Shown here in pieces: positions 4,846 to 64,000 of a DNA stretch of 64,000 nt (its first letter is position 1; every line of letters begins with the position of its first letter). The position numbers and the translations under genes are program-made. The stretch comes from Amanita rubescens (taxonomy: Eukaryota > Basidiomycota > Agaricomycetes > Agaricales > Amanitaceae), in NCBI GenBank assembly GCA_015039365.1, contig WION01000005.1, positions 186,001 through 250,000 on the forward strand. The letters run 5' to 3'. Below the pieces are notes generated by a model, which saw only the letters and a list, made by a program, of their open reading frames with translations, had not been told where the DNA came from and ran no database searches.

Positions 4846-5068
4846 TCGTTTAAATTATTTGTGCATTAGACAATGAAGACAAGCGAAATGCATTTACGTT
4901 GTCGGAAATCATCGGCCGAGGACGGCTGATCAAAACACTCGCCCGTAAGCTCTAAGGCATTCAGATCCGAGTAATTCGTGTCGGCCGATCCAACGCGGGA
5001 CTGATACAAGGGGTATTGCAATGGTTGGAAATATATAATGACCCCAACATTGTTCATTGTCAACCACT

Positions 5069-11471: not shown

Positions 11472-13874
11472 ATGGCCTCTGCTCTACCCTCCCTCCTCGA
11501 CCTAACAGTCCCCAGAACAGCCTATATGGCACCATCAAATTCGGACGTCTTTGTCCTCGCTGTCGGCGTTATCTTAGCTGCAGTTTACATCTTTCGGGAT
11601 CAGATTTTTACTCCTTCCTCTTCTAAACCCGCACCAACAGTCACAAAGGCCGCTGCTACTGCTACAAATGGCTCCGCTAATCCCAGAGATTTCATTGCAA
11701 AGATGAAGGAGACCGTGAGTTAAGAATATCTACCCTTTTAACACCTCTTGTTTATTGCCGCGTGTAGAAAAAACGCCTAGTTATCTTTTACGGCTCACAG
11801 ACAGGCACCGCAGAAGAGTACGCCATTCGTCTCGCAAAGGAAGCCAAATCCAAGTTTGGCCTCGCTTCCCTAGTATGTGATCCTGAGGAATATGAATTTG
11901 AGAATCTAGACCAGCTGCCAGAAGATTGCGCCGCAATCTTCGTCATGGCCACATATGGCGAGGGCGAACCCACAGATAACGCTGTGCAGCTGATGCAGAA
12001 CCTCCAAGACGAGTCATTTGAGTTTAGCAATGGCCAGCACGCGTTACCGGGGCTCAAATACGTCGTATTCTCTCTCGGAAATAGGACCTACGAGCATTAC
12101 AATCTTATCGGCAGGACCATAGACAATGTGCTCACTAAAATGGGCGGAGTCAGGATTGGAGAACGTGGAGAGGGTGATGACGATAAGAGCATGGAGGAAG
12201 ACTATCTAGAGTGGAAAGATGGCATGTGGGAAGCTTTTGCCGCAGCGATGGGCGTCGAGGAGGGTCAGGGTGGTGACTCAGCAGATTTTGTCGTTTCGGA
12301 GCTCGAGTCGCATCCTCCCGAAAAGGTTTACCTTGGTGAGTTATTCCATTCAGTTTCTGTGCATTCCTGAATGTACCCCAGGCGAATACTCTGCTCGCGC
12401 GCTCACCAGGACCAAAGGCATTCACGATGCCAAGAATCCATATCCTGCGCCCATTTCGGTGGCGCGGGAGTTGTTCCAAGATGTCAGGAGCCGAAACTGT
12501 GTTCATATGGAATTTAGCACGGAAGGCTCCGGTATCAGTTACCAGCACGGTGACCACGTGGGCGTCTGGCCAACAAATCCGGATCTTGAAGTTACTCGTC
12601 TTCTGTGCTGCCTGGGCCTGTATGACAAGAAAGACTCTGTCATTAACATCGAGTCTCTTGATCCTGCGCTGGCCAAAGTGCCATTCCCGGTACCCACAAC
12701 ATACATCACTGTTCTCCGCCATTACATCGATATCAGCGCCGTTGCCGGTCGTCAGATCCTCGGAGCCTTGTCCAAGTACGCCCCTTCAGTAGAGGCTGAA
12801 GTTGCCTTGAAGAGGCTTAACACGGACAAGGAGGAGTACCACAACGTTGTCACCAATGGATGCCTTAAGCTCGCTGAAGTTTTGCAATTGTCAGCTTGCA
12901 ATGATATTCGGGCATTTCCCACTACGCAGAATACGACCAGCTGGAGTATACCATTTGATATCATCGTGTCGTCTATTCCCCGTCTGCAGCCCCGCTACTA
13001 CTCGATATCGTCCAGTCCCAAACTCAATCCTAATTCTATTCACGTAACGGCTGTCGTCTTGAAGTACCAGTCAGCTCTCACGAATCAGGTTTCTCAAAGA
13101 TGGTTATATGGTGTTGGATCCAACTTCTTGCTCAATCTCAAACTGTCTGCAAATAGCGAGCCGATACCCGTTGTTAATGAAGGTGGCTTCGAGCGTGCTG
13201 ATGTTCCTGCATACCTACTGGAAGGACCGCGGAGCGCATACAAGGATAATATCATTTACAAGGCACCGATTCACGTCAGGCGTTCAACGTTCCGTCTCCC
13301 TACGAATCCCAAGAGCCCGGTAATAATGATTGGTCCCGGAACCGTAAGTGTTCTCCCGCGTGAATCTATCGAATCTTGTTGACAGGTTGGCTTGCAGGGC
13401 GTTGCTCCTTTCCGCGGTTTTATCCAGGAACGTGTCTCCTTGGCCCGCCGTTCGATCGAGAAAAACGGCCCAGATGCACTGTCCGATTGGGGACAAATAT
13501 GGTTATTCTATGGTTGCCGTAGATCGGACGAAGATTTCCTGTACAAGGACGAATGGCCCCAATACGCAGAGGAACTCAAGGACAAATTTACGATGCGCTG
13601 CTCATTTTCTCGTGAGAAGTTCAACCCGGACGGAAGCAAGATTTACGTTCAGGATTTAATATGGAACGAAAGAGAAAAACTTGCGGATGCTATTCTCAAC
13701 GGCAAGGGTTACGTTTATATCTGTGGTGATGCCAAGAACATGAGCAAGGCTGTTGAGGAGACGCTTGCTAGGATACTGGGTCAAGCCAAAGGCGGAAGCG
13801 CCGAGGTGGAGGGCGTAGCCGAGGTCAAACTGCTCAAAGAACGGTCGAGGTTGTTGACGGACGTCTGGAGTTAA
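11472..13874 (+). CDS. ncp1: NADPH-cytochrome P450 reductase
   Basis: Four exons (11472-11714, 11768-12335, 12382-13343, 13398-13874) encode 749 aa, the normal length. Order: N-terminal membrane anchor (DVFVLAVGVILAAVYIF); FMN-binding flavodoxin (YGSQTGTAEEYA, ATYGEGEPTDNA, SLGNRTYEHYN); connecting and FAD domains (GDHVGVWPTN, RYYSISSSP); and the NADPH site (GPGTGVAPFRGF, FYGCRRSDEDFLY, YVYICGDAKNMSKAV), ending DVWS. All cofactor motifs are intact. The enzyme sits on the ER and passes electrons from NADPH through FAD and FMN to cytochromes P450 and sterol-pathway oxidases. No P450 gene is adjacent. The start is the first ATG of exon 1 and gives the expected short lumenal tail. Confidence 0.95.
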
Positions 13875-52733: not shown

Positions 52734-53461
52734 TCAGGTGTTTTAACTTTATGTTGGAATCGGAATGGAAACTTCATCAGATGCATCACCGCCTATTCAT
52801 GTCCATTCACGCGCATTGTGCACTTTACGCACCTTTCCCTCCTTTCCTTTGTTGCACAATGTTAAGCTTTTCTTTCTCCACTGCCTAAATAGGAGACAAC
52901 GATCTCCTCACTTCAGACTGAGGTGAGCTCCTCGTGCTGTTTCTTGCTCAAATTCATGTTAACGATTGTCTTGTGCTAGTCAGAATGAACCTATAGTAAC
53001 TATGACTTTTTCGGGTGAATTGAACCTCGGCGGTTCTTTTCGGCACGTCGCGGATGTTGCCGGTCAGGGTTGGGGCAGCGACCCTTTCGCTTACGGGGCC
53101 CGCCGTCCAATGCGTTGATGCGTCCCCTGCTACCCCCCTTCGTCTCCCCAGTTGTTGCTCTACTCGGTGGTGGGAGTGTGATGTTCAACTTGTGAAGTAG
53201 GGAGTTAGTTTGGCTGGGAGCTGGGGGTCCCTGTGGCATTACTACTACTACTTGTACATCACTTATAATATGTGTAGTAAAAATTTCATATTTTTTGCAT
53301 TGTTTTCACCCAGCTACCAGCCCCCCCCAGGCGAGGGGCTACTACACACACTCGGATGAGCACACTACAACTGACTGGGCCAGGTCCATGGCCCGACGAG
53401 AGGCACGCTGATCGCATCAACGCCAAGCGTCGGCTAGGCTGCTAAGCGACGTTGATGGTGC

Positions 53462-53540
53462 CAGCCCGCTGGCTGGCTGGCTCGAAAGAACGCTGCCGGC
53501 TCGAAAGAACGTTGGCTGGCTCGGTAGAACCGCCCTGTCC
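53462..53540. repeat. imperfect triplicate of a ~23-bp motif
   Basis: Three successive copies of GGCTGGCTCGAAAGAACG-like sequence (two with GCTCGAAAGAACG, one with GCTCGGTAGAACC) between about 53470 and 53532. They lie just left of the palindrome, in DNA with atypical composition. Confidence 0.6.
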
Positions 53541-53549
53541 TTTTGAACC

Positions 53550-53579
53550 GGCAATAAGTGGTTCTGGGCACTTATTGCC
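53550..53579. repeat. perfect 11-bp inverted repeat (hairpin)
   Basis: GGCAATAAGTG at 53550-53560 is followed after 8 bp by CACTTATTGCC at 53569-53579, a perfect stem. A second CACTTATTGTACTTATTA follows. It could be a transposon subterminal palindrome or a transcript hairpin; no gene ends directly beside it. Confidence 0.7.
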
Positions 53580-54020
53580 CTATCCCCCGCCCACTTATTG
53601 TACTTATTATAGCCGGCCCAATTCAACCTGGCTTGGCCAGCTGGCCCCCTGGGCCCTCGGCCTCCTGCTCCCCTCCCTCAACATCTTAGTGGTGTAGCAT
53701 TGCCAGAAGCAGTGATTAAATTTTACATATACTAGTAGTTTTATTAATAACAGCTTTGCATTGATATATCTAACATTGCTACATGTTGTTGGGTGACGGG
53801 GGCCGGGGCCGGCACACATCCGCGCGCGCTCCCGGGAGCGCGCGCGAAGCGCAGGGAAGGGTATAAAATAAAAGAGGAAGAAAAGGGTGGGGGAGCGGGC
53901 GGAACTCCAACGTTCGGCGATCACCGGTCCTTCCCCATTTGGCTAGCGTTCTTTTTGATCGCTTACTCATCATTTCCCATGCGCCAACGCCGTTCAATCT
54001 CGCGCAATAACTCGCTATAA

Positions 54021-56512
54021 ATGGGTGAATTAGTAGTTCTACCATGCAACTTGCCCGGTGCTGTCATGTCGCTGCAGCTTGACAGTTTTGATTGGGGCAA
54101 TCCGCGAAGTTTCTTTGAGGCGGTGGCCGTCGGTGGATTACCGATGCCTTCATCATTTCCTACACCAGAAGAGGTTCGCAAAGAAGCGTTTCCACGCTCT
54201 CGAAGTATATTCTCAGACTGGACCTTCCTAAACCATATCATCGAGCGGTATGAAGCGACCATACGGAAGCGTTGGTCGAGAAAGACACGGGAGCAGCGCA
54301 AGACGATTTTGCTCGCTGCCTGGCCCAATATGTCTCCTACCCATCGCCCAGATTTTGATGCTTTCGCAAGGAGGAAACCAGGACGGCAGCTAATGTCCAG
54401 AGATTCATATATGTGGCCATACATCAATCTCGAGGACTTAGTGAAGCCGAAGCTGTTGCTTATCTTTCTAAACGCCCGTGGTCGTAACCCTCCAGGCGCG
54501 TTTGCCACTGCCGACGAGGATTCTGTTAGATTTGGGATAGTAACCAAAAACCTTGTACCAACTTTCCTGAACGATTATACCATGATGTTCACGGGGAGAA
54601 ACACGCCGGATGTATATGGAGAACTCATCGCTTGGGATGATGAACCTGACGCCTTTTCGTGGTTGATGGCTCGCAGGGGCATGCAACCAGGTGAAGGGCT
54701 CCAGTTACTTCAAATACAAGAGCGACTCTATCACTTTCTGGTAGAGTGTTGCCTCGCCATACTACACGATATACCGCGGGAGTCCTTGTTGCAGGGTGAC
54801 ATACCTGTCCAGCCAGAACCCCCAGCCCTTTCCACATCTGAAGCCGGATTAAGCTCGCTGGCGACCGTGGCCACGGAAGGGCCATACCGCCTCCCAGCCA
54901 GACTTGATCTCGTCCGCATACTTGAGATCATTGCCGCAAAACGTTCTGCTGCAGAAGATCATATCTGGTCCTTGCGAGAAGATCCTGGCTATTTCGCCGA
55001 TGTCGTATTGGCCATGAAAGAACATCAATTGGAAACGCTTCCCGACACTCGAGGAAATCGACATCCTTCCCTTAGACCCCATACAGAAGGGGCATTTTGG
55101 AACAAGATGCTTGGCATCGTTGTCGCAGATGCCGATGTCTCTCTGGCTGGCTGGGATGAAATCCACCGACAAATCACCGATGTTCAGTTGTTAATGGCGA
55201 AATACGAAAATGACATACTGCCTGAAAAAGATCTTCCCGAGGAACTTTTGAAGGCATTCTTAACCCTCGACTATACTTTAGAACAGTCCACAAAGGGTCC
55301 TATTCACAAGCTGAAGGTCAGCCTTCCAGCTTCTCCTCGTGTCCGAGCACTCTTTGTTCGTGAACCTCCGGCCCCAAACAGCTCTATTATTCGTGTGAGT
55401 AGACAGAGACCGCCTGGTGACAGAGGTAGGACTCCTGTTTTGGATATTCGAGACAATGTGGGACTGAAGGGCAGTTGCACCTTGCTGGTCTGAATACCCT
55501 GATGGACGAGATGGATAGGCTGATTCAGAGCGATTTAAAGCTCAAAGAGCTCATATCCCCATGGGTAGCCAACATTATCTCCGACTTATCGGTCATTTCC
55601 GAATGCCGACATCAAATATCGCTTTACCAACCTTGGGCCGCGGGTTTCGAGAACGCATCGGCGGAGCATGAAGAGTATCTCAAAGGAAACTTTGATGATA
55701 CTGTCAAGGAATGGACGCAATTCCATAAGTCTTTTGATGGAACATCATTAGGCAAGCTTGGAGCTCCATTGGAGGGAAGATTCTTCTATCCTGTCGAGAA
55801 ACGCAGAACCCGCGAAACCACCGAAGCAATGCGGCGAGCTGAGTCAAATCTTGATGAATTCTGGGCATATGTGGACAGGTTTCTTGTTAACAAGGCTGGG
55901 ATGTCGCACCATCAGGCTTTACGCCACTTGTTATCTGACGATCACATACTGCGTAGGACTCCCGAATGGGTTGAGAATCCTGAAGCTTCAAGGCAAGATT
56001 CCCAGCCTCATAACCCAGAGGACCTCTGTCAACCCCTCTCTCAGCTCTACTTTGAGCTTGAACATCGCACTCAAAGCACTCTCAGTCCCGAGAAAGAGTC
56101 GCTGCGGAAGTCAAAGGTCAAAACCCGTGGTACAGCCCAAGTAGTGGAACTACCTGCGAATGTGATTCCGGAGGCTATGTCTGAAATCGGTGTTGAGCCT
56201 TCGTTCACAGTTGACAAACGGGCCTTTCAAATCTTCTCGACCCTCTTCTACACGCCCTCCAGGACTTCGCAGCCTGGAGAAATTGCATGGACCGATTTTC
56301 TCCATGCGATGGGCTCCGTGGGCTTTGGAATCGAGAAGTTGTACGGATCTGTGTGGCAGTTCACGCCGGGAAGTTTAGATGCTGGGAGCAGTATTCAATT
56401 CCATGAACCTCATCCAAGCGGGAAGCTGCCCTTCCGGACAGTGAGACGCAATGGGAGAAGGCTATTCAGGGCGTATGGATGGCACGCGGGGATGTTTAGG
56501 TTATGCGAGTAG
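54021..56512 (+). CDS. large fungal orphan protein ('ipa'-like), possible HicA-like C-terminus
   Basis: Two exons (54021-55394 and 55475-56512; 80-nt GTGAGT...GGCAG intron in phase) give 803 aa. The N-terminal two thirds are helical and unfamiliar: FPRSRSIFSDWTFLNHIIER, WPNMSPTHRPDFDAFARRKP, SYMWPYINLEDLVKPKLLLI, LHDIPRESLLQGDIP. The C-terminus reads EIAWTDFLHAMGSVGFGIEK, LYGSVWQFTPGS, IQFHEPHPSGKLPFRTVRR and GRRLFRAYGWHAGMF. This tail matches a widespread, uncharacterised fungal family often labelled 'ipa protein', known to me from memory only. Its GF...GSxw.f...H.PH order resembles the small dsRBD-like HicA fold, but without the GSH catalytic His. The intron is open in frame for 32 codons, so retention would give a 490-aa truncated form. 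Confidence 0.75.
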
Positions 56513-56846
56513 CTCCACTAAAGCCGTCGGTCATGAATGATTTACTAGTAATCTAGTTTCTATCCCGGATGTAATGTATTATAACTCACGTTAAATGTAA
56601 CACAGGGCCCTCAGATCTCAGAGCCCGAGTCTAGGGGTTAGCACTTAGCGACAAACTGTAGACCCAGGTCGATGACTTGGTGCAAGTACTGATAAAAGGC
56701 GTCAGTGGAACAGTCGCGGTGGAAGGAGCTGGGAGAGGAAGACCTCTCAAATAGCTGGTGTGGTGTAGGTGCTCACCGACAATTCATCGTCATCTGTATA
56801 CGCGAGATCCGGTTTTGAATCCGACCTTGTCGTCCTTTAAAATAAA
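56513..56846. other. intergenic, nothing recognised
   Basis: A 334-bp gap between the orphan gene and the sirtuin. It contains GC-rich blocks around 56605-56640 and a stretch at 56755-56835 that loosely resembles a tRNA but fails base pairing. It presumably holds the sirtuin promoter. Confidence 0.4.
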
Positions 56847-58036
56847 ATGGGCGCTTTGATGGAGGCGACGGTGCGTGGCCGGGCACTCATTGAGTCCGCC
56901 TGTGCGTGCGATATGACACCCTCTGCGGATAAGGATGCCTTCAGAGGGATCCTTGCCTCATCTAAGAACATAATTATCCTCTCCGGTGCCGGCTTGTCTG
57001 CAGCATCAGGTTGACCAGAATTCCTGTTGATTCAGTGCCAACCAACTGACCTGCGCTTACACAAGGCATTCCAACCTATCGCGGACAAAGTAACTCGTTG
57101 TGGACTCAGAACGTAAGATATCAGCGATGATTTAACAACCTGAAAACCCATGACAGGACCAATGCAGCCAGTCGCACTTGCTGCACGAGAGAATTTCAAC
57201 AAGAACCCAAGTTCATCGTGGTCCTTTTACCACCCTCGTCGTGCAGCGTATGTGTCAATAGACGGAGCTCTTCTCCAGTCGTTAACAAAGGCATATACCA
57301 CATGACGCAGTTACCTCGATGTTAAACCCAACAACGCCCATCGTGCCTTGGCAATCCTGAACAATCCATCGACATTATCTCGCATTGCCCCAAACGCCCA
57401 ATCTCCTCCACTCCATGTCACTCAGAATATCGACGAGTTATCACTGCGCGTTCTGAACGAGTTTCCTCAAGATACCAAAAACGATGCTGAGCAGCACCTA
57501 ATCCAAATGCACGGGTCGATATTTAGAACGCGATGCTTGTCGTGCCAGCATGTCAGGCACAGCTACGATCCATATCTTTCCTCGGCATTGAAAGATCTCA
57601 AAGCAGGGGAAGAGTTTCCTGTCGATAAGCTACCGAGGTGCGGAGGAGATTCATGGGCGGGGTCCAATCGGTATGGCAAATGTGGCGGTTTGTTGAGGCC
57701 GGATGTCGTTTGGTTTGGAGAGGTCCCACCCCAGCTGGGCGAAATTACGAGAAAAATGACATGGTGCGATCTCTTGTTGGTAGTTGGTACATCAGCATTG
57801 GTGAGACTATTATTCTCGTTTCAAAGTCGGTGCTGAGGAATAACTTTTGGTTCAAGGTACAACCGGCGGCTGGTTTTCCTGCTCAGGTGAAGCAACACGG
57901 TGGAAAAGTCGCCATCTTCAACGCGGAACGATCCAAGGGCGACGAGGATGTCGATTTTTTGTTTTTGGGTAGCTGTGAAAAGACGTTATCAGATGTGTTG
58001 GGTGTTCAGGGAGATATTGCGAACGTTTGGACGTGA
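56847..58036 (+). CDS. class III sirtuin (SIRT5-type NAD-dependent deacylase)
   Basis: Plus strand, ATG 56847 ([18 protein letters not shown]), TGA 58034-58036. NAD-binding [20 protein letters not shown], then [48 protein letters not shown], catalytic His in [18 protein letters not shown], zinc Cys pairs (CLSC and PRCGG with [16 protein letters not shown]) and [20 protein letters not shown]. The FYHPR segment keeps the Tyr-x-x-Arg pair that lets SIRT5 remove succinyl, malonyl and glutaryl groups, so this is probably a deacylase of acidic acyl-lysines. No clear mitochondrial presequence is seen. The second intron uses the GCAG acceptor before [10 protein letters not shown]. Its stop is 50 bp from the next gene's ATG. 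Confidence 0.9.
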
Positions 58037-58086
58037 ACTATTTGAAATGTGTCATATATATAGATTGCGCATTGAAAGCTCTTTCC

Positions 58087-58786
58087 ATGGTTCCAGGTCA
58101 GCTTCAGAAGGCCGTACGATGGCATCGTCCTTCGTACGACATCCGGGTCGAGGACGTTCCTGTACCACAGGTCGGTCCCCTTACTAGTATTACTATCGAT
58201 TCCCAGACTGACGGTAGATGCACCAGAATACAAGATTCTAATGATGCTATAGTCAAAGTCAAAGTATGTCGTTACAAGTCGCATGATGTCAATCATCGAC
58301 TAATACCAATAGCTTGCGGGCCTCTGCGGTGCGTCCGCTAACATACAGTTACGATGTATAATTCTGACGCAAAGTAATGACTGCAGGAAGCGATCTACAC
58401 ATTTATAGAAATCACGATTCCAGTGTCGACAAAGTGTACGTCGCATATCCACCACAACGTTCCATTACCGTGTGTTGACACATTGAAAGCCATACTTGCG
58501 GACACGAATTCATTGGCGAAGTTGTGGCTCTCGGGTCGAATTATGGACCTCAATCAACAGGCAGGACGCCGCTTTACGCCACTCTGAAGATTGGAGATAA
58601 GGTTGTATCACCATTCACGACAAACTGCGGGGATTGTCTGTGCGCTTCGTCATCTTTCCGCCGGTTCATCAGGAATTCTGATCCGCTATAAACAGCGCGT
58701 GTCGCCTTGGTTACACAGCACGCTGTCCTCAGGGTAAACTTTTCGGCTCACCCGTGCTGGATGGCGGACAAGCGCAATACGTTCTG
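58087..58786 (+). pseudogene. zinc-dependent alcohol dehydrogenase, 5' part, split by a transposon
   Basis: GroES-like medium-chain dehydrogenase. ATG 58087 (MVPGQLQKAVRWHRPSYDIR), then VEDVPVPQ, QDSNDAIVKVK, LAGLCGSDLHIYRNHDSSV (catalytic-zinc Cys), CGHEFIGEVVALGSNYGPQS, KIGDKVVSPFTTNCGDC and CRLGYTARCPQGKLFGSPVL (structural zinc Cys set), then DGGQAQYVL. Splicing was read through five introns; the first junction is uncertain (36-nt intron, TDGRCTRIQD). At codon QYVL the gene is interrupted by the element starting at 58787; read-through adds about 100 foreign residues before a stop. The missing part resumes at 63943. Before the insertion the gene looks intact. Substrate unknown (sorbitol/threonine-dehydrogenase-like). 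Confidence 0.88.
58778..58786. repeat. target-site duplication, left copy
   Basis: TACGTTCTG, repeated at 63934-63942 on the other side of the element. A tenth base (G) also matches, so the length is 9 or 10 bp. Confidence 0.9.
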
Positions 58787-58818
58787 GAGGATTCCCCAAA
58801 TGCGACACTGTCACACTC
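58787..58818. repeat. left terminal inverted repeat
   Basis: Begins GAGGATTCCCC and continues AATGCGACACTGTCACACTC. Partner at 63901-63932 in reverse orientation, 27 of 32 matching. Confidence 0.92.
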
Positions 58819-58948
58819 ACGGTCATCCTACACACTCGCCAAACGGCCACCACACTCGCTCAAATGCCCCTCACATTCACCAAAGTGTTGGCCACACTCG
58901 TCAAAAAACCCCTCACACTCATTTAATACATCCACACTCGCACCCTCC
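58812..58948. repeat. left subterminal array of ~20-bp CACACTC repeats
   Basis: Seven units beginning CACACTC (one CACATTC), spaced 19-21 bp, with variable interiors such as GCCAAACGGCCAC and GCTCAAATGCCCCT. They start inside the TIR and run inward. Likely transposase-binding sites. Confidence 0.85.
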
Positions 58949-59211
58949 GTGATGAGATGCCATGATTTGGAGAGCATACGTGGCACGCCGCACCGCTTGC
59001 GTGACCTTCCTCATTTAGTTTGGTGCCAGGGCCCTCCTTCCTCATTTAGTTTAAGCTGTTCCTGGGGGACAAAGAGAGCGTAAAGAGATTGTAAAGAGAG
59101 CGACAAAGAGAGATCGAGCAATCCGACGCTCGCCCCAAAAAGTTATGATAGTGTAATTGTTAGTGACATTGAAATTACAACACATTTCCGAGTCAATAGT
59201 AAATACTAAAT

Positions 59212-62200
59212 TTACGAGCCTCCAGTATTTGTAAGGAAGCTATTGAACAGTTCTTCAGTAGTTGGATCAATTGCATAGTATGATGGGTCGGTTGTTGCAG
59301 GTTCTACATCACCTGAGACATTGTGCAACATCACCATTTGGTCGTGACTGGCATGTGGTAATAGGTTTTCAGATACAGTGTATGGCAAGTCGTTGCTAGT
59401 TGACGTGTTCAGCAAGTTACCATAGTAGTTGCCCAGACCAGTGCTTGTTGACGCTATCGGCATGTCACTATATTGGGCCCATCCCGGAAGACTACCATCA
59501 TATATTAGCGACGTTAGTAAACCTTCAAGACACGTACTGGTCAGCAACCTGAGCATCCAGATTACAGGCTGACGACAGCCCTTCCTCGGGCCACGTCATT
59601 GTGTTATCCCACATTCCAAAACCGCCGGCGGCCGCAGCAAATGCCTGTGCCTGTGGGATGTATGTCTCATCTGGGCCTGACGGTCCTGACCATGTGATTA
59701 GCAGTTTATCTAAAGACAATGTGAGATATTGTCGGTGTTGCACACCTTCGTTAATCTGTGCTGGGCCTTGTTCCTTTCCCTTTCGAGACGAAGTTCGACC
59801 ACTAGAACTTGATCCAACTCGATATGAAGATGAGCGCCTTGACGACAAGCCGGCCTTGCGCGTCTTTAATTCTTTCAACTTCTCCTGGTTGTCTTTCCGA
59901 ACTTGGCTCAAGGCCTGTATCTCGTTATTGATTCGGTCCACCTCTGAATCCTGAAACCTTTTCTCTTGAGATTTGCGAGCTGTAAGAGAATTGCGTGTCA
60001 GTGCCCGTGACATGCGATTAAAGGCATCATTCCGATTGTTGCGGAGAACACCGGCTGTCATTGAGTCCTTGATTTCTGCAGCAACTGTGTTATCGAGGAT
60101 ACGGGCACTGCCAGTTATCAGTACTCTATTTCTCAAATGGTGCTCTCAGAAATCCTGGCACACCTTTCAATTGCTTCAACAAGCGACAACTTCGTGCCAG
60201 TGTTAGAATTTGTCCAGTGATGCTGGCTTTCACCCATGTTTGTTGTCGCCTGGGTTATTGTCCAGTCCGCCGGGTTCATTTTTGTACGTAATGGCATAAT
60301 TGCTGGAAGGATCCAGCGATGGTCAAGTTTATGAGCCCACCACGCTGGCAATTGTCAATTACTATTAATTTCACATAGCAATACAGTTAATATCGGTATA
60401 CGGACCTTGAACCTCATCGGGGAGATCCCCGATCCACGTTGAAAATTCACTGAACTCCTTCTCTGTCTTGATGTAAGGAAAATCTTGGATTCGCCGGTAT
60501 TGTTCATCATTGAGCACTGGTCGGAGTTTCTGGATGCCGCTGTGATACAGATCAAGATGTGTCCAAGAAATGGTCTTTGAAATGAGACAATACCGTTTTA
60601 CATGCGTGTAGCATGCACGAACAACATATTGAACTAGGATCTCAGGATCTGTTGTTCTTATTTCACTATAGTCTGGCTCATTGGTGGTGAGGAATGAGTC
60701 TCCAAAGCCCTGAACTTGCGCAAGTTCAAGGTCAACATTGAGGGAGAGAAGGTTTCCGCCACGACTGAACCGTTTGAAGAGTAGGTGCCGATTTGTAATT
60801 ACATGCGTGAGACGTTGGAATTCATCGAAAAGGGCTTTGTATTGCGTTCTATCTGCCCTGTTAGTGTATATTCGTCCAATGGTCACAGCTAGACGAGTCA
60901 GGTATGAGCAATTGGATACCAGCCTTGCCATGGGCTTATCATCGTACCTCGGTGAACTGCTGCACACCAGATAACTATTTCACACTCCTGGAACTCTCCA
61001 ACTGTACGCTTAAATGTCGTGTCAATTTGAATCGTGATGGCCTGATGAACGAGGCCAAGTAGATATGGATGAAATGTGTAAATCAATAGTCCGTCACTTG
61101 GAGTTGTCAGAATATTATGAACGTAGCGCTCATCAACAGGCTTTTTGCGTTCGCTTCCAAGAATGTTCCATACTCCTGACAAGTAACGATCAATAAAAAA
61201 GAGTAACATTTGCAAAGGCGTGAAACATTGTTTACCTGGGATGCCAAATCCACATGGGTATAGCTTCCGTTTCTCCTGACGGATGATATCCTGTTTTAGG
61301 CGATTGGACTGCAGAGCAGGACTCGTCAAAGCTGGAGTTTTGCCCTGTAGGATCAACCGAGTGCTCGAAGCTATTAAGTTTGCGTGACGAGTCAGCCTGA
61401 GAAAATCTGAAAAAATTGTTTATTACCATTCTCTACTGACTGAACCGTGCTCCCTATCACTCCCACAGCGTCAACGCAACTCCGGTACAGATTCCTGAGG
61501 TCTCGAGAGGCTTTGGATGCCGGTAGGACAGGGTGCGAATGAGGGTAATCGTGGTTCGGTACAATACATGCCATGCGAATTGTTGGGTCCACGGGGACGT
61601 AAATGGTTCGTGATGCTGGGCAATTGTGCCGCTTCATGTTAGTTTGGGTCCCATTGGCATTGTGCGGAAAGCCTAGTGATTGTGATTAACCGATTTTGTC
61701 AAGTAGATCAGTGGAAAGATCGTGACTTACGACATTTCTCAACTTTCCCTCCAACATGTGCTGGAATGACTCGGCTGCATTTAGAGGCACCGGAAAAACC
61801 ATCCAGCTCCTCCCCCGCAAATAAACGAGCTAGCATGTGTTCATCAACGTTATCGGGTATTGAATGGTACTGGTGATTGTCCCGAAACGAGCGCGTCCAT
61901 CCTGAACATGCAATAAAGTATGGCTTGGCCCTCTTCGTCGAATCCTACTCCAGTGGTTGAGACAATCTCATCAATGAAAAGACCACCATAGTCATACCTT
62001 ATATGACTTCATGATAGGGTGACCAGTGCATAGCGAACCTGCACTATCGCGCGCATTGCATTGGCGAGACTGTATGACAAGCCAGAATCTGCAAGGAAGC
62101 AGTTAGCTGCAGTACCACTGTAGCGGGAGCAAGACGAGAGTGCGTACGTCAAGACCAGCTTCTCAGCACTGTTAGCTTCTTTTGTACGGTCTTGTAACTG

Positions 62201-63318
62201 AGCTTCAATGATGGATGAGAGTGAGTTGGGGTCAAGTTCATATCGCTCGGCATTGAGAAACTTGGGATCTACTTGTTCACAAGCATAGAAGCCAGCACAA
62301 TCAAGGCGGCTTCTGCGGCATGGGACCGGAACTCCAGTAAAGATGTCAAAGGATGGTTTTGAATCCCCGTCACCAGTTCCACCACGCCAAGAGTCTTGAT
62401 CCTATCCAGACCGCGCTCGAATCAGTCCAGACAGGATGCCAGCAAGATTGTAGTAAACTCACCTTGTTTTTTATTATAGCGTCTACGGTCAGAAGCTCGT
62501 GACCATTTCCTTCATAAATGTTGTATTTGGGGTCGCGTAAATCAATGATGTATGCGGTTTTGACACGAGGAACTGGCCAATAGCTTGGCAAGCCAGTGAC
62601 GTACTCGACGCGATCCACTAAAAGCTGCCGATTTAGTCGGCGAGGCTTATCCGAGACACGCGACGTTACATCCTGGTCTAGCCACACCGTGTCAGAAGGT
62701 AGCTCAGTTTCGTCGTCGCTGGCCATATCTTGGGAGTTTGGGATATATTCATCGGATCCAGACTCATGCTCCGAGAAGTCTCCAGTATCACCAACCAGTG
62801 TGGTATCGCTAGGTGTACCGGTACGGCTCAAGTCACCGCCAAGGCTAGGGATGATGCATGTCTCAGGATCGTCTTCAGCCTCTGAATCGGAAAGGATTTC
62901 GATCGTCTCATGCCCATTTTCGTGGGTGGAGCGAATGCGGACTTCCCCAGCGCTGAGCGATAGCGGAAGATCTTCTACTTTGACTGAATGGTCCAGCGGC
63001 TCGCGTTTAATTATTACTGCAAATATTGAGACCACTAGTAATTGTCTGAACTTAGAAATGAGACAAACCTTTGTTCCTTGAGACGTTATGTTTCATAAAC
63101 TCTTTCAACTCGCGTACATCAATCCAGTCATTTGAGACGAATTTGGTGGGGTTGCGTTCTATGAATGTCTTTGTGTAAATCTGCAAAGAGACGTATCACT
63201 ATCATGTCCAGTAAACATGATAAATATGATCGTAATTACTCACCTCATTCCTAAATCCTTCGATAATTCCTAGTGGCACACTGTGTAAAAAATCCTTCTC
63301 TTCCTCAGTACGAGGCAT
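59212..63318 (-). CDS. putative DDE transposase of the element
   Basis: Minus strand, ATG 63318 (MPRTEEEKDFLHSVPLG), TAA 59212, about 12 introns; every junction I followed keeps frame. N-terminus: KFVSNDWIDVRELKEFMKH, an acidic linker (EILSDSEAEDDPET), GLPSYWPVPRVKTAYIIDL. Cys-rich part: CRRSRLDCAGFYACEQVDP, RQCNARDSAGSLCTGHPIM, YFIACSGWTRSFRDNHQYHS, RHNCPASRTIYVPVDPTIRM, a probable zinc-binding DNA-recognition region. Core: IQIDTTFKRTVGEFQECEIV (first Asp of a DDE triad), RAVTIGRIYTNRADRTQY, HKLDHRWILPAIMPL and GESQHHWTNSNTGTKLSLVE. The C-terminus is a basic coiled coil (NNEIQALSQVRKDNQEKLKE) and a Gly/Ser tail. I recall similar 'hypothetical' proteins in many Agaricomycetes. DDE assignment is by motif and context. 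Confidence 0.82.
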
Positions 63319-63769
63319 TGTAAGCCTGTTCTGAAGGGCTGTTGAAGACCGTGACAACTTTGCGAGTATTCGTTTCTCCCTCTCGGCACCATCACCACCG
63401 TTTCACTCGCTCTCAGCCATATAATTTCAATTTTCTGCACGGCCGCTGATCCACTTGCCTCCCTACAGGTCGGAACAAACCTTTATGCAGCTCAGGCCCG
63501 AGTGTGGTTGCTTGATCAAGTGATGATATCCCCGAGAAGTAATATGCCAGCCAGTTACTGAAGGCGAAAGATGACGAATATATTTGGCTAACATATATAC
63601 AGGTGAGCGAGTATGGTATAGCTATCAGCGATGCTACCGTGTGTGCTTACCTGCTGTCGACGTTGAGAGCTGAGCCGACAGGAGAGTGATCGTGCGTGGG
63701 AGTAATATCCTTATGGGGCACGTGTGACAGTATTTGCATTTGTTAGTAGCTCCCTCTAATACTACGAAG

Positions 63770-63907
63770 TCATGCTATTATGTGGGGTGCTTGATCGCGA
63801 ACGTGAGGATCATTTAAGTGAGTGTGATGAGCATTATAGTGAGTGTGAGGGAGGCCGGAGCAAGTGTGGTGGCCATTCAACGAGTGTGTCGGTTGATGGC
63901 GAGTGTG
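63770..63907. repeat. right subterminal array of ~20-bp repeats
   Basis: Read on the minus strand, units CACACTCGCC..., CACACTCGTT..., CACACTTGCT..., CACACTCACT..., CACACTCACT..., CACGTTCGCG... follow each other at 19-21 bp, mirroring the left end in spacing and consensus but not in the variable interior. Confidence 0.85.
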
Positions 63908-63932
63908 ACAGTGTCGCATTTCACCTATCCTC
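63901..63932. repeat. right terminal inverted repeat
   Basis: Ends ...GTGTCGCATTTCACCTATCCTC on the plus strand, the reverse complement of the left terminus with five central mismatches. One extra G (63933) lies between it and the duplication. Confidence 0.92.
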
Positions 63933-63933
63933 G

Positions 63934-63942
63934 TACGTTCTG
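63934..63942. repeat. target-site duplication, right copy
   Basis: TACGTTCTG, identical to 58778-58786. Confidence 0.9.
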
Positions 63943-64000
63943 GTACCCAACGCAGGCGCAACTTTATTCAACCTCAGCGACCCCAACACATGGCCAAACC
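63943..64000 (+). pseudogene. zinc-dependent alcohol dehydrogenase, 3' continuation (partial)
   Basis: After the right duplication the frame reads VPNAGATLFNLSDPNTWPN to the window edge, the expected continuation of QAQYVL in this dehydrogenase family. Joining 58786 to 63943 (one duplication copy kept) leaves the frame intact. It is cut off from its own start by the transposon, so by itself it is not expressed as dehydrogenase. Confidence 0.85.

Follow-up and report, generated by a model that had tools for sequence, protein, structure and literature searches.

Introduction

The described systems that come closest to the DNA transposon analyzed here are the Mutator-like elements (MULEs), such as Muta1, an active MULE of Aedes aegypti, and the bacterial IS256 family, to which ISCth4 belongs. 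The transposon is located in a 64,000-bp stretch of DNA from Amanita rubescens, a species of the Agaricales (the window; C439:186001-250000 in an assembly of 75.7 Mb and 786 contigs), where it interrupts a gene identified by homology as that of a zinc-type alcohol dehydrogenase. According to PMC5225508, the terminal repeat of Muta1 contains nine subterminal repeats of 12 bp each, and Muta1 and other MULEs resemble the present element in having 8-9 bp duplications, a DDE transposase with conserved H and W, and subterminal tandem repeats at the ends. They differ from it in several respects: the Muta1 transposase has 504 amino acids (aa), as compared with about 1110 aa here; the CxxH motif here is farther from the second Asp; the subterminal boxes here are 19-21 bp apart; and no Pfam MULE match exists here.

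In both of our structure models, the solved fold closest to the predicted catalytic region is that of ISCth4, which likewise has a D-D-E triad with a helical insertion and makes 8-bp duplications (PMC7780238). However, the identity is only 8-10%, ISCth4 is a 1.5-kb element of the copy-out/paste-in type, and its D-D/D-E spacings are 66/107 (from the ISCth4 residue numbers in PMC7780238), as against 77/129 here. The Kyakuja, Dileera and Zisupton (KDZ), Plavaka and hAT elements are also DNA transposons with transposases, occurring in Agaricomycetes or rusts. In PMC12730594, Kyakuja is described with 7-bp duplications, CA..TG ends and no inverted repeats, Plavaka with 2-3 bp duplications, and Zisupton and the usual hAT with 8-bp duplications, as compared with 9 bp here. 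We consider it probable that the element is a complete, autonomous, divergent agaricomycete Mutator-like transposon, inserted in exon 6 of the dehydrogenase gene in one of two A. rubescens haplotypes.

Occupied and empty sites

A first-pass annotation of the window, made from its letters alone, had reported TACGTTCTG at 58778-58786 and 63934-63942, and had deduced an empty site in which QAQYVL is rejoined to VPNAGATLFN. Both statements hold: the repeat is in fact a 10-bp match, TACGTTCTGG, and the two flanks join in a single frame as ...GGQAQYVLVPNAGATLFNLSDPNTWPN, which exists as uninterrupted DNA elsewhere in the genome (below). The 9-mer occurs four times in the window (0.48 expected; 0 of 100 shuffles reached four); the remaining two occurrences, at 306 and 57107, have no role in the insertion. 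The features of the insertion are as follows.

58778-58786, plus strand: left copy of the target site duplication, TACGTTCTG; single copy in contig C401
63934-63942, plus strand: right copy of the target site duplication, from the repeat match
58787-63932, minus strand (that of its gene): complete DNA transposon, 5146 bp, with the GAGGAT...ATCCTC ends common to the copies on C155, C464 and C12
58787-58818, plus strand: left terminal inverted repeat, first 32 bp, 27 of 32 matching the right end
63901-63932, minus strand: right terminal inverted repeat, 32 bp, matching the left end
63933, plus strand: an additional G separating the right end from the duplication; in C401 the base preceding TACGTTCTG is A

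A genome search for the 5′ portion of the dehydrogenase gene found only two places, namely the window and C401:4307-5011. Contig C401 (41,590 bp) is colinear with C439 from 239 to 41590 and lacks the element. The alignment consists of three colinear blocks (C401 239-5013, 5004-23064 and 23062-41590, with identities of 99.85, 99.70 and 99.44%, respectively), and the first two share ten bases, TACGTTCTGG, exactly at the position of the element. Thus, C401 holds the site once (5004-5013, 10 bp including the following G) without the element, and the empty site deduced from sequence alone is confirmed in actual DNA. The simplest reading of the colinearity is that C439 and C401 are the two haplotypes of one dikaryon. 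The polymorphism that had been guessed at is accordingly present in this genome as an element-free contig; that this contig belongs to the sister nucleus is what we infer from the alignment.

Two other origins of C401 were weighed. The comparison uses DNA identity only, without read depth or phasing, and would also suit a segmental duplication at another locus, so that the insertion would split one of two paralogues; however, C401 is short and colinear with C439 nearly end to end at 99.4-99.85%, and with the dehydrogenase 5′ part at only two places in the assembly, we consider this very unlikely. The other is that C401 is a revertant produced by precise excision rather than a never-occupied allele. 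MULEs with duplications can excise precisely, and this was the case for about 90% of the Muta1 revertants in yeast, according to PMC5225508. Against this, the contig alignment shows no excision footprint at the empty site of C401, and the two contigs show 2 mismatches and 3 indels, one of the indels being an extra A at 58169, in the 4.8-kb left flank (window 54008-58785 versus C401 239-5011) and 11 mismatches in the 4.07-kb right flank, over about 8.8 kb in all. These differences mark C401 as a separate lineage, with which an excision within that lineage would be compatible, and we regard a reversion as very unlikely.

A second difference between the haplotypes was also seen: about 2.44 kb in C439:267997-270432, with inverted ends CCTTGCTTG/CAAGCAAGG, is missing from C401. 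In addition, C401 104-238 (135 bp) faces about 1.0 kb of the window (53002-54007), if the 103-bp match of C401 1-103 is colinear.

The interrupted dehydrogenase gene

The gene is composed of the following parts in the window; exons 2-5 were placed by shifting the C401 exon model to the window.

58087-58170, plus strand: exon 1 of the alcohol dehydrogenase gene in the occupied allele (MVPGQLQKAVRWHRPSYDIRVEDVPVP...); 4314-4396 of C401 correspond to this exon with one base fewer
58169, plus strand: extra A in the occupied allele only, adjoining the exon 1/intron 1 donor (alignment with C401)
58227-58263, plus strand: exon 2
58313-58328, plus strand: exon 3
58387-58435, plus strand: exon 4
58490-58639, plus strand: exon 5
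58696-58786, plus strand: exon 6, left part, which reads into the element
63943-64000, plus strand: exon 6, right part; the gene continues beyond the window to the dehydrogenase end (tblastn, P0051 140-427)

Splicing of exons 1-6 in C401 gives a dehydrogenase reading that is stop-free through the insertion point to the next intron, and the continuation of the window's contig matches the remaining dehydrogenase of A. inopinata P0051 (140-427). The joined fragments (161 aa) also have this protein as their best match (81% over 96%). P0051 carries both PF08240 and PF00107 of Pfam. Of the 2035 relatives found, 120 were listed; all of these have a precomputed PF08240, and all except P0125, P0132 and P0144 have PF00107 too. 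The domains of the relatives extend over both fragments, and the interrupted gene can be identified on these grounds as a zinc-type alcohol dehydrogenase. The claim of a precise insertion into its exon is borne out by this match and by the continuous gene of C401.

The statement that the host gene is otherwise intact is, however, contradicted by the extra A at 58169. With a 56-base intron 1, the C401 allele is in frame and the occupied allele is out of frame; an alternative 36-base intron 1 would keep the latter in frame, and the extra A is possibly an assembly error. Exon 6 of the occupied allele runs into the element, where 98 foreign residues precede a stop at 59081-59083. The occupied allele would thus be a null (loss-of-function) allele, with at most about 142 residues of its own before the element-coded 98, and the intact allele probably covers the loss in the dikaryon.

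Elsewhere in the window, Sir2-family frames at 57306-58036 (PF02146, E 1.4e-17 for 57348-57836) lie on the same strand and terminate about 50 bp upstream of the dehydrogenase start, and open frames at 11768-13874 resemble NADPH-cytochrome P450 reductase by eye.

Ends and copies of the element

The inverted termini, noted in the first pass as 32 bp long, match in register at 27 of 32 positions and both read GAGGAT at the ends; a weaker similarity (71.5%) extends to 130 bp. Near-identical copies were found at C155, C464, C12 and C19; the one at C12 is interrupted, and in the one at C19 the left part is either absent or displaced. The left end of the C12 copy recurs with an identical flank at C612, which is probably an allele of the C12 copy. 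The C155 copy aligns gap-free with the window copy over 5146 bp, with 11 mismatches; the C464 copy differs from the window copy by 14 mismatches and 21 gap bases. For the C464 copy, a related and possibly allelic site that lacks the element is present at C315 (93%). The event had been called recent, and the perfect 9-bp duplications, the stop-free transposase gene and the 11 mismatches to C155 agree with this.

Flanks and duplications of the other copies were read by eye from aligned sequence. A 9-bp duplication was found at all four sites that are readable at both ends: TACGTTCTG in the window, GCGCATTTC at C155, GAGTTCCTG at C464 and CTTTATAAG at C12. One base lies between ATCCTC and the right duplication in the window (G, overlooked in the first pass) and in C155 (A), and none is needed in C464 and C12. 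Because C401 has A there, the extra G of the window does not come from the target. At the same two sites, the G that follows the right duplication equals the first base of GAGGAT, which also allows a ten-base reading of the repeat. Either a cut one base outside the end or an altered tenth base of the duplication would give the extra base. An 8-bp duplication with the ends GGAGGAT/CGAGGAT (31/40 matches), which was the best solution from the window alone, was dropped in view of the GAGGAT/ATCCTC ends and 9-bp repeats of the other copies.

A giant element of apparently 53 kb on C12, with its left end at 78892 and its right end at 132044, was also discarded: it is one copy interrupted by two insertions, C12:80060-117291 (about 37.2 kb) and C12:119996-130754 (about 10.8 kb). 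The larger has an 8-bp duplication, TGAATCCT, ends rich in GATCATGC-type repeats, and exact long repeats of 636 and 456 bp; its long open frames resemble nested retrotransposons.

Subterminal box arrays

Both ends carry arrays of short boxes.

58812-58939, plus strand: left subterminal array, seven CACA[CT]TC boxes at element offsets 26, 45, 65, 86, 107, 128 and 147
63820-63907, minus strand: right subterminal array, CACACTC boxes at offsets 26, 45, 86 and 107 from the right end, with CACACTT at 65

The seven left boxes compare with 0.36 expected and the four right boxes with 0.21 expected; the maximum in 500 shuffles was three on either side. Their spacing corresponds to about two helical turns, and the boxes are putative binding sites of the transposase. 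Ends of a similar kind persist in the diverged elements at C63, C450, C13 and C183. The left-end relatives at C63, C450 and C13 share a 14-bp flank, caagagccggaatt, which suggests that one old insertion was seemingly copied inside a larger repeat.

The transposase gene

The single long gene that had been noticed between the termini was resolved as follows, with residue counts referring to ungapped rows of a 43-member family alignment.

59212-63318, minus strand: transposase gene, 15 exons, 1110 aa, read from 63318 to 59212, no internal stop
61021-61023, minus strand: predicted catalytic Asp 1, D612 (IDTTF), D in 42/42 rows
60731-60733, minus strand: predicted catalytic Asp 2, D689 (VDLE), D in 43/43 rows
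60602-60613, minus strand: CxxH motif, C729 and H732, C in 40/41 and H in 39/40 rows
60229-60231, minus strand: predicted catalytic Glu, E818 of the model (GESQHHW), equal to E836 of P0001, E in 40/40 rows

All 14 introns are of 36-63 bases and have GT-AG borders. The first gene model (1160 aa) was 97% identical over 100% to P0001, a predicted A. rubescens protein, and read through three introns; it was corrected against P0001 and relatives. P0001 itself keeps one read-through intron, and its D-E spacing (147) is therefore not typical. Spacings were measured in 52 of 74 proteins looked at, those in which the first two positions are readable: D-D is 77 in 41/52, D-E is 130-131 in 37/47 (129 in the window transposase, with a D-D of 77), and the distance from the second Asp to the CxxH His is 43-44 in 44 of 50 measured.

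A first homologue search found 50 proteins among 7403 candidates scored, a part of the database, and a profile search found 32, some in common with the first, among the 7996 best-scoring candidates. All relatives in both searches are unnamed hypothetical proteins, and the 32 profile matches are all agaricomycete; judged by genus, every named host in the scored part is presumably an agaricomycete. No description of the family was found in the open literature searched, Repbase being outside the search.

Placement of the transposase

Several features favor a Mutator affinity. The predicted fold has an RNase H-like DDE domain of the IS256/Mutator type, and a C/D(2)H motif follows the second Asp within a helical insert, with a spacing longer than in the published examples compared. 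In the VIA structural comparison, which covered about 1000 chains ranked highest by Foldseek, the IS256 family scores best for both models, exceeding hAT Hermes by 2-3 Z units; the 50 rows inspected per model contain no KDZ, Plavaka or P-element chain. The sole BFVD match at E ≤ 0.001 is the uncharacterized wasp bracovirus protein O92526 (E 1e-11, probability 1.00, TM 0.45 by target), which we take to be a Phantom-type MULE. A MULE from a polydnavirus is mentioned in PMC6446971, where the Phantom list names Ichnovirus, not bracovirus. The 9-bp duplication at 4/4 sites falls within the 8-11 bp given for MULEs in the same paper. By contrast, duplications of 8 bp (5-7 in some lineages) for hAT, 7-8 bp for KDZ, and 2-3 bp with TGT or CATCA ends for Plavaka (PMC12730594) do not agree with 9 bp and GAGGAT ends, and these groups are disfavored by the duplication length and the ends. 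The Pfam matches of the members include no KDZ family. Pfam holds a KDZ model. Long terminal inverted repeats are typical of MULEs, though not universal; the termini here match at 27 of 32 bp and then more weakly, at 71.5% over 130 bp, which speaks clearly neither for nor against membership.

Several points nevertheless weigh against the proposed reading. One group concerns the placement: none of the 43 members has a Pfam transposase match (only weak unrelated families up to E 0.1, the best at E 0.013); PF10551 (Pfam MULE) misses this element and yet matches five other places in the genome; neither predicted model has a Foldseek match in the PDB at E ≤ 0.001; and both models are large, with a pTM of 0.60. 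Another concerns the locus: the proposed reading does not account for the extra base at the right end of two of the four sites, an empty site for the C155 copy was looked for in the assembly and not found, the haplotype status of C401 is read from colinearity and DNA identity, and one-base differences between the contigs could be assembly errors. Finally, the activity of the element is putative. As to the other databases, NCBIfam gave only weak unrelated matches in 27 members (best E 0.0059), and the PDB sequence search gave a best E of 0.43 and no transposase. The five PF10551 domains over the cut-off lie at C245, C354, C36, C276 and C564.

The Pfam and NCBIfam results, the exclusively agaricomycete profile matches and the long Asp2-His distance, as compared with 11-19 in prokaryotic Mutator relatives (PMC3942029) and 24 in Muta1 (PMC5225508), would also suit a transposase that founds its own superfamily among the DD-CxxH-E transposons (Mutator, hAT, P and their kin), rather than a divergent branch of Mutator. 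We think this rather unlikely, given the IS256 family as the best structural match twice and the fit of the 9-bp duplication and subterminal repeats to Mutator. Equally doubtful is the fuller picture of a separate, unnamed mushroom superfamily with D-D-CxxH-E, boxes on one helix face every two turns, and continuing movement in A. rubescens, visible as an occupied and an empty allele within a single dikaryon. A divergent Mutator member is the most likely identity of the transposase; the sequence searches did not place it among the MULEs, so this membership is probable and not proven.

Discussion

The precise ends, the 9-bp duplication at four sites, the empty site in C401, the open 1110-aa gene, the conserved D-D-CxxH-E residues and the boxes at both ends can be read directly from the DNA. 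They suggest a course of events in which the transposase would bind the phased boxes, pair the element ends, and cut at, or about one base beyond, GAGGAT; the element would then be joined to a 9-bp staggered cut in the target, and repair would make the duplication. Cut-and-paste rather than copy-out is assumed here from MULE biology. The outcome would be a null dehydrogenase allele in one haplotype, masked by its intact counterpart in the dikaryon.

MULEs and heterozygous insertions are already known, and the finding is solid rather than startling. Its significance lies in three points. One is that agaricomycete hypothetical proteins without a transposase assignment are brought together as a transposase family whose ends, duplication and catalytic motif are defined, by which its elements can be annotated. 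Another is that, with the occupied/empty pair, the loss of a gene to a transposon in a single haplotype can be tested directly. The last is that the element, with almost identical copies that have complete ends, is a good candidate for a transposition assay.

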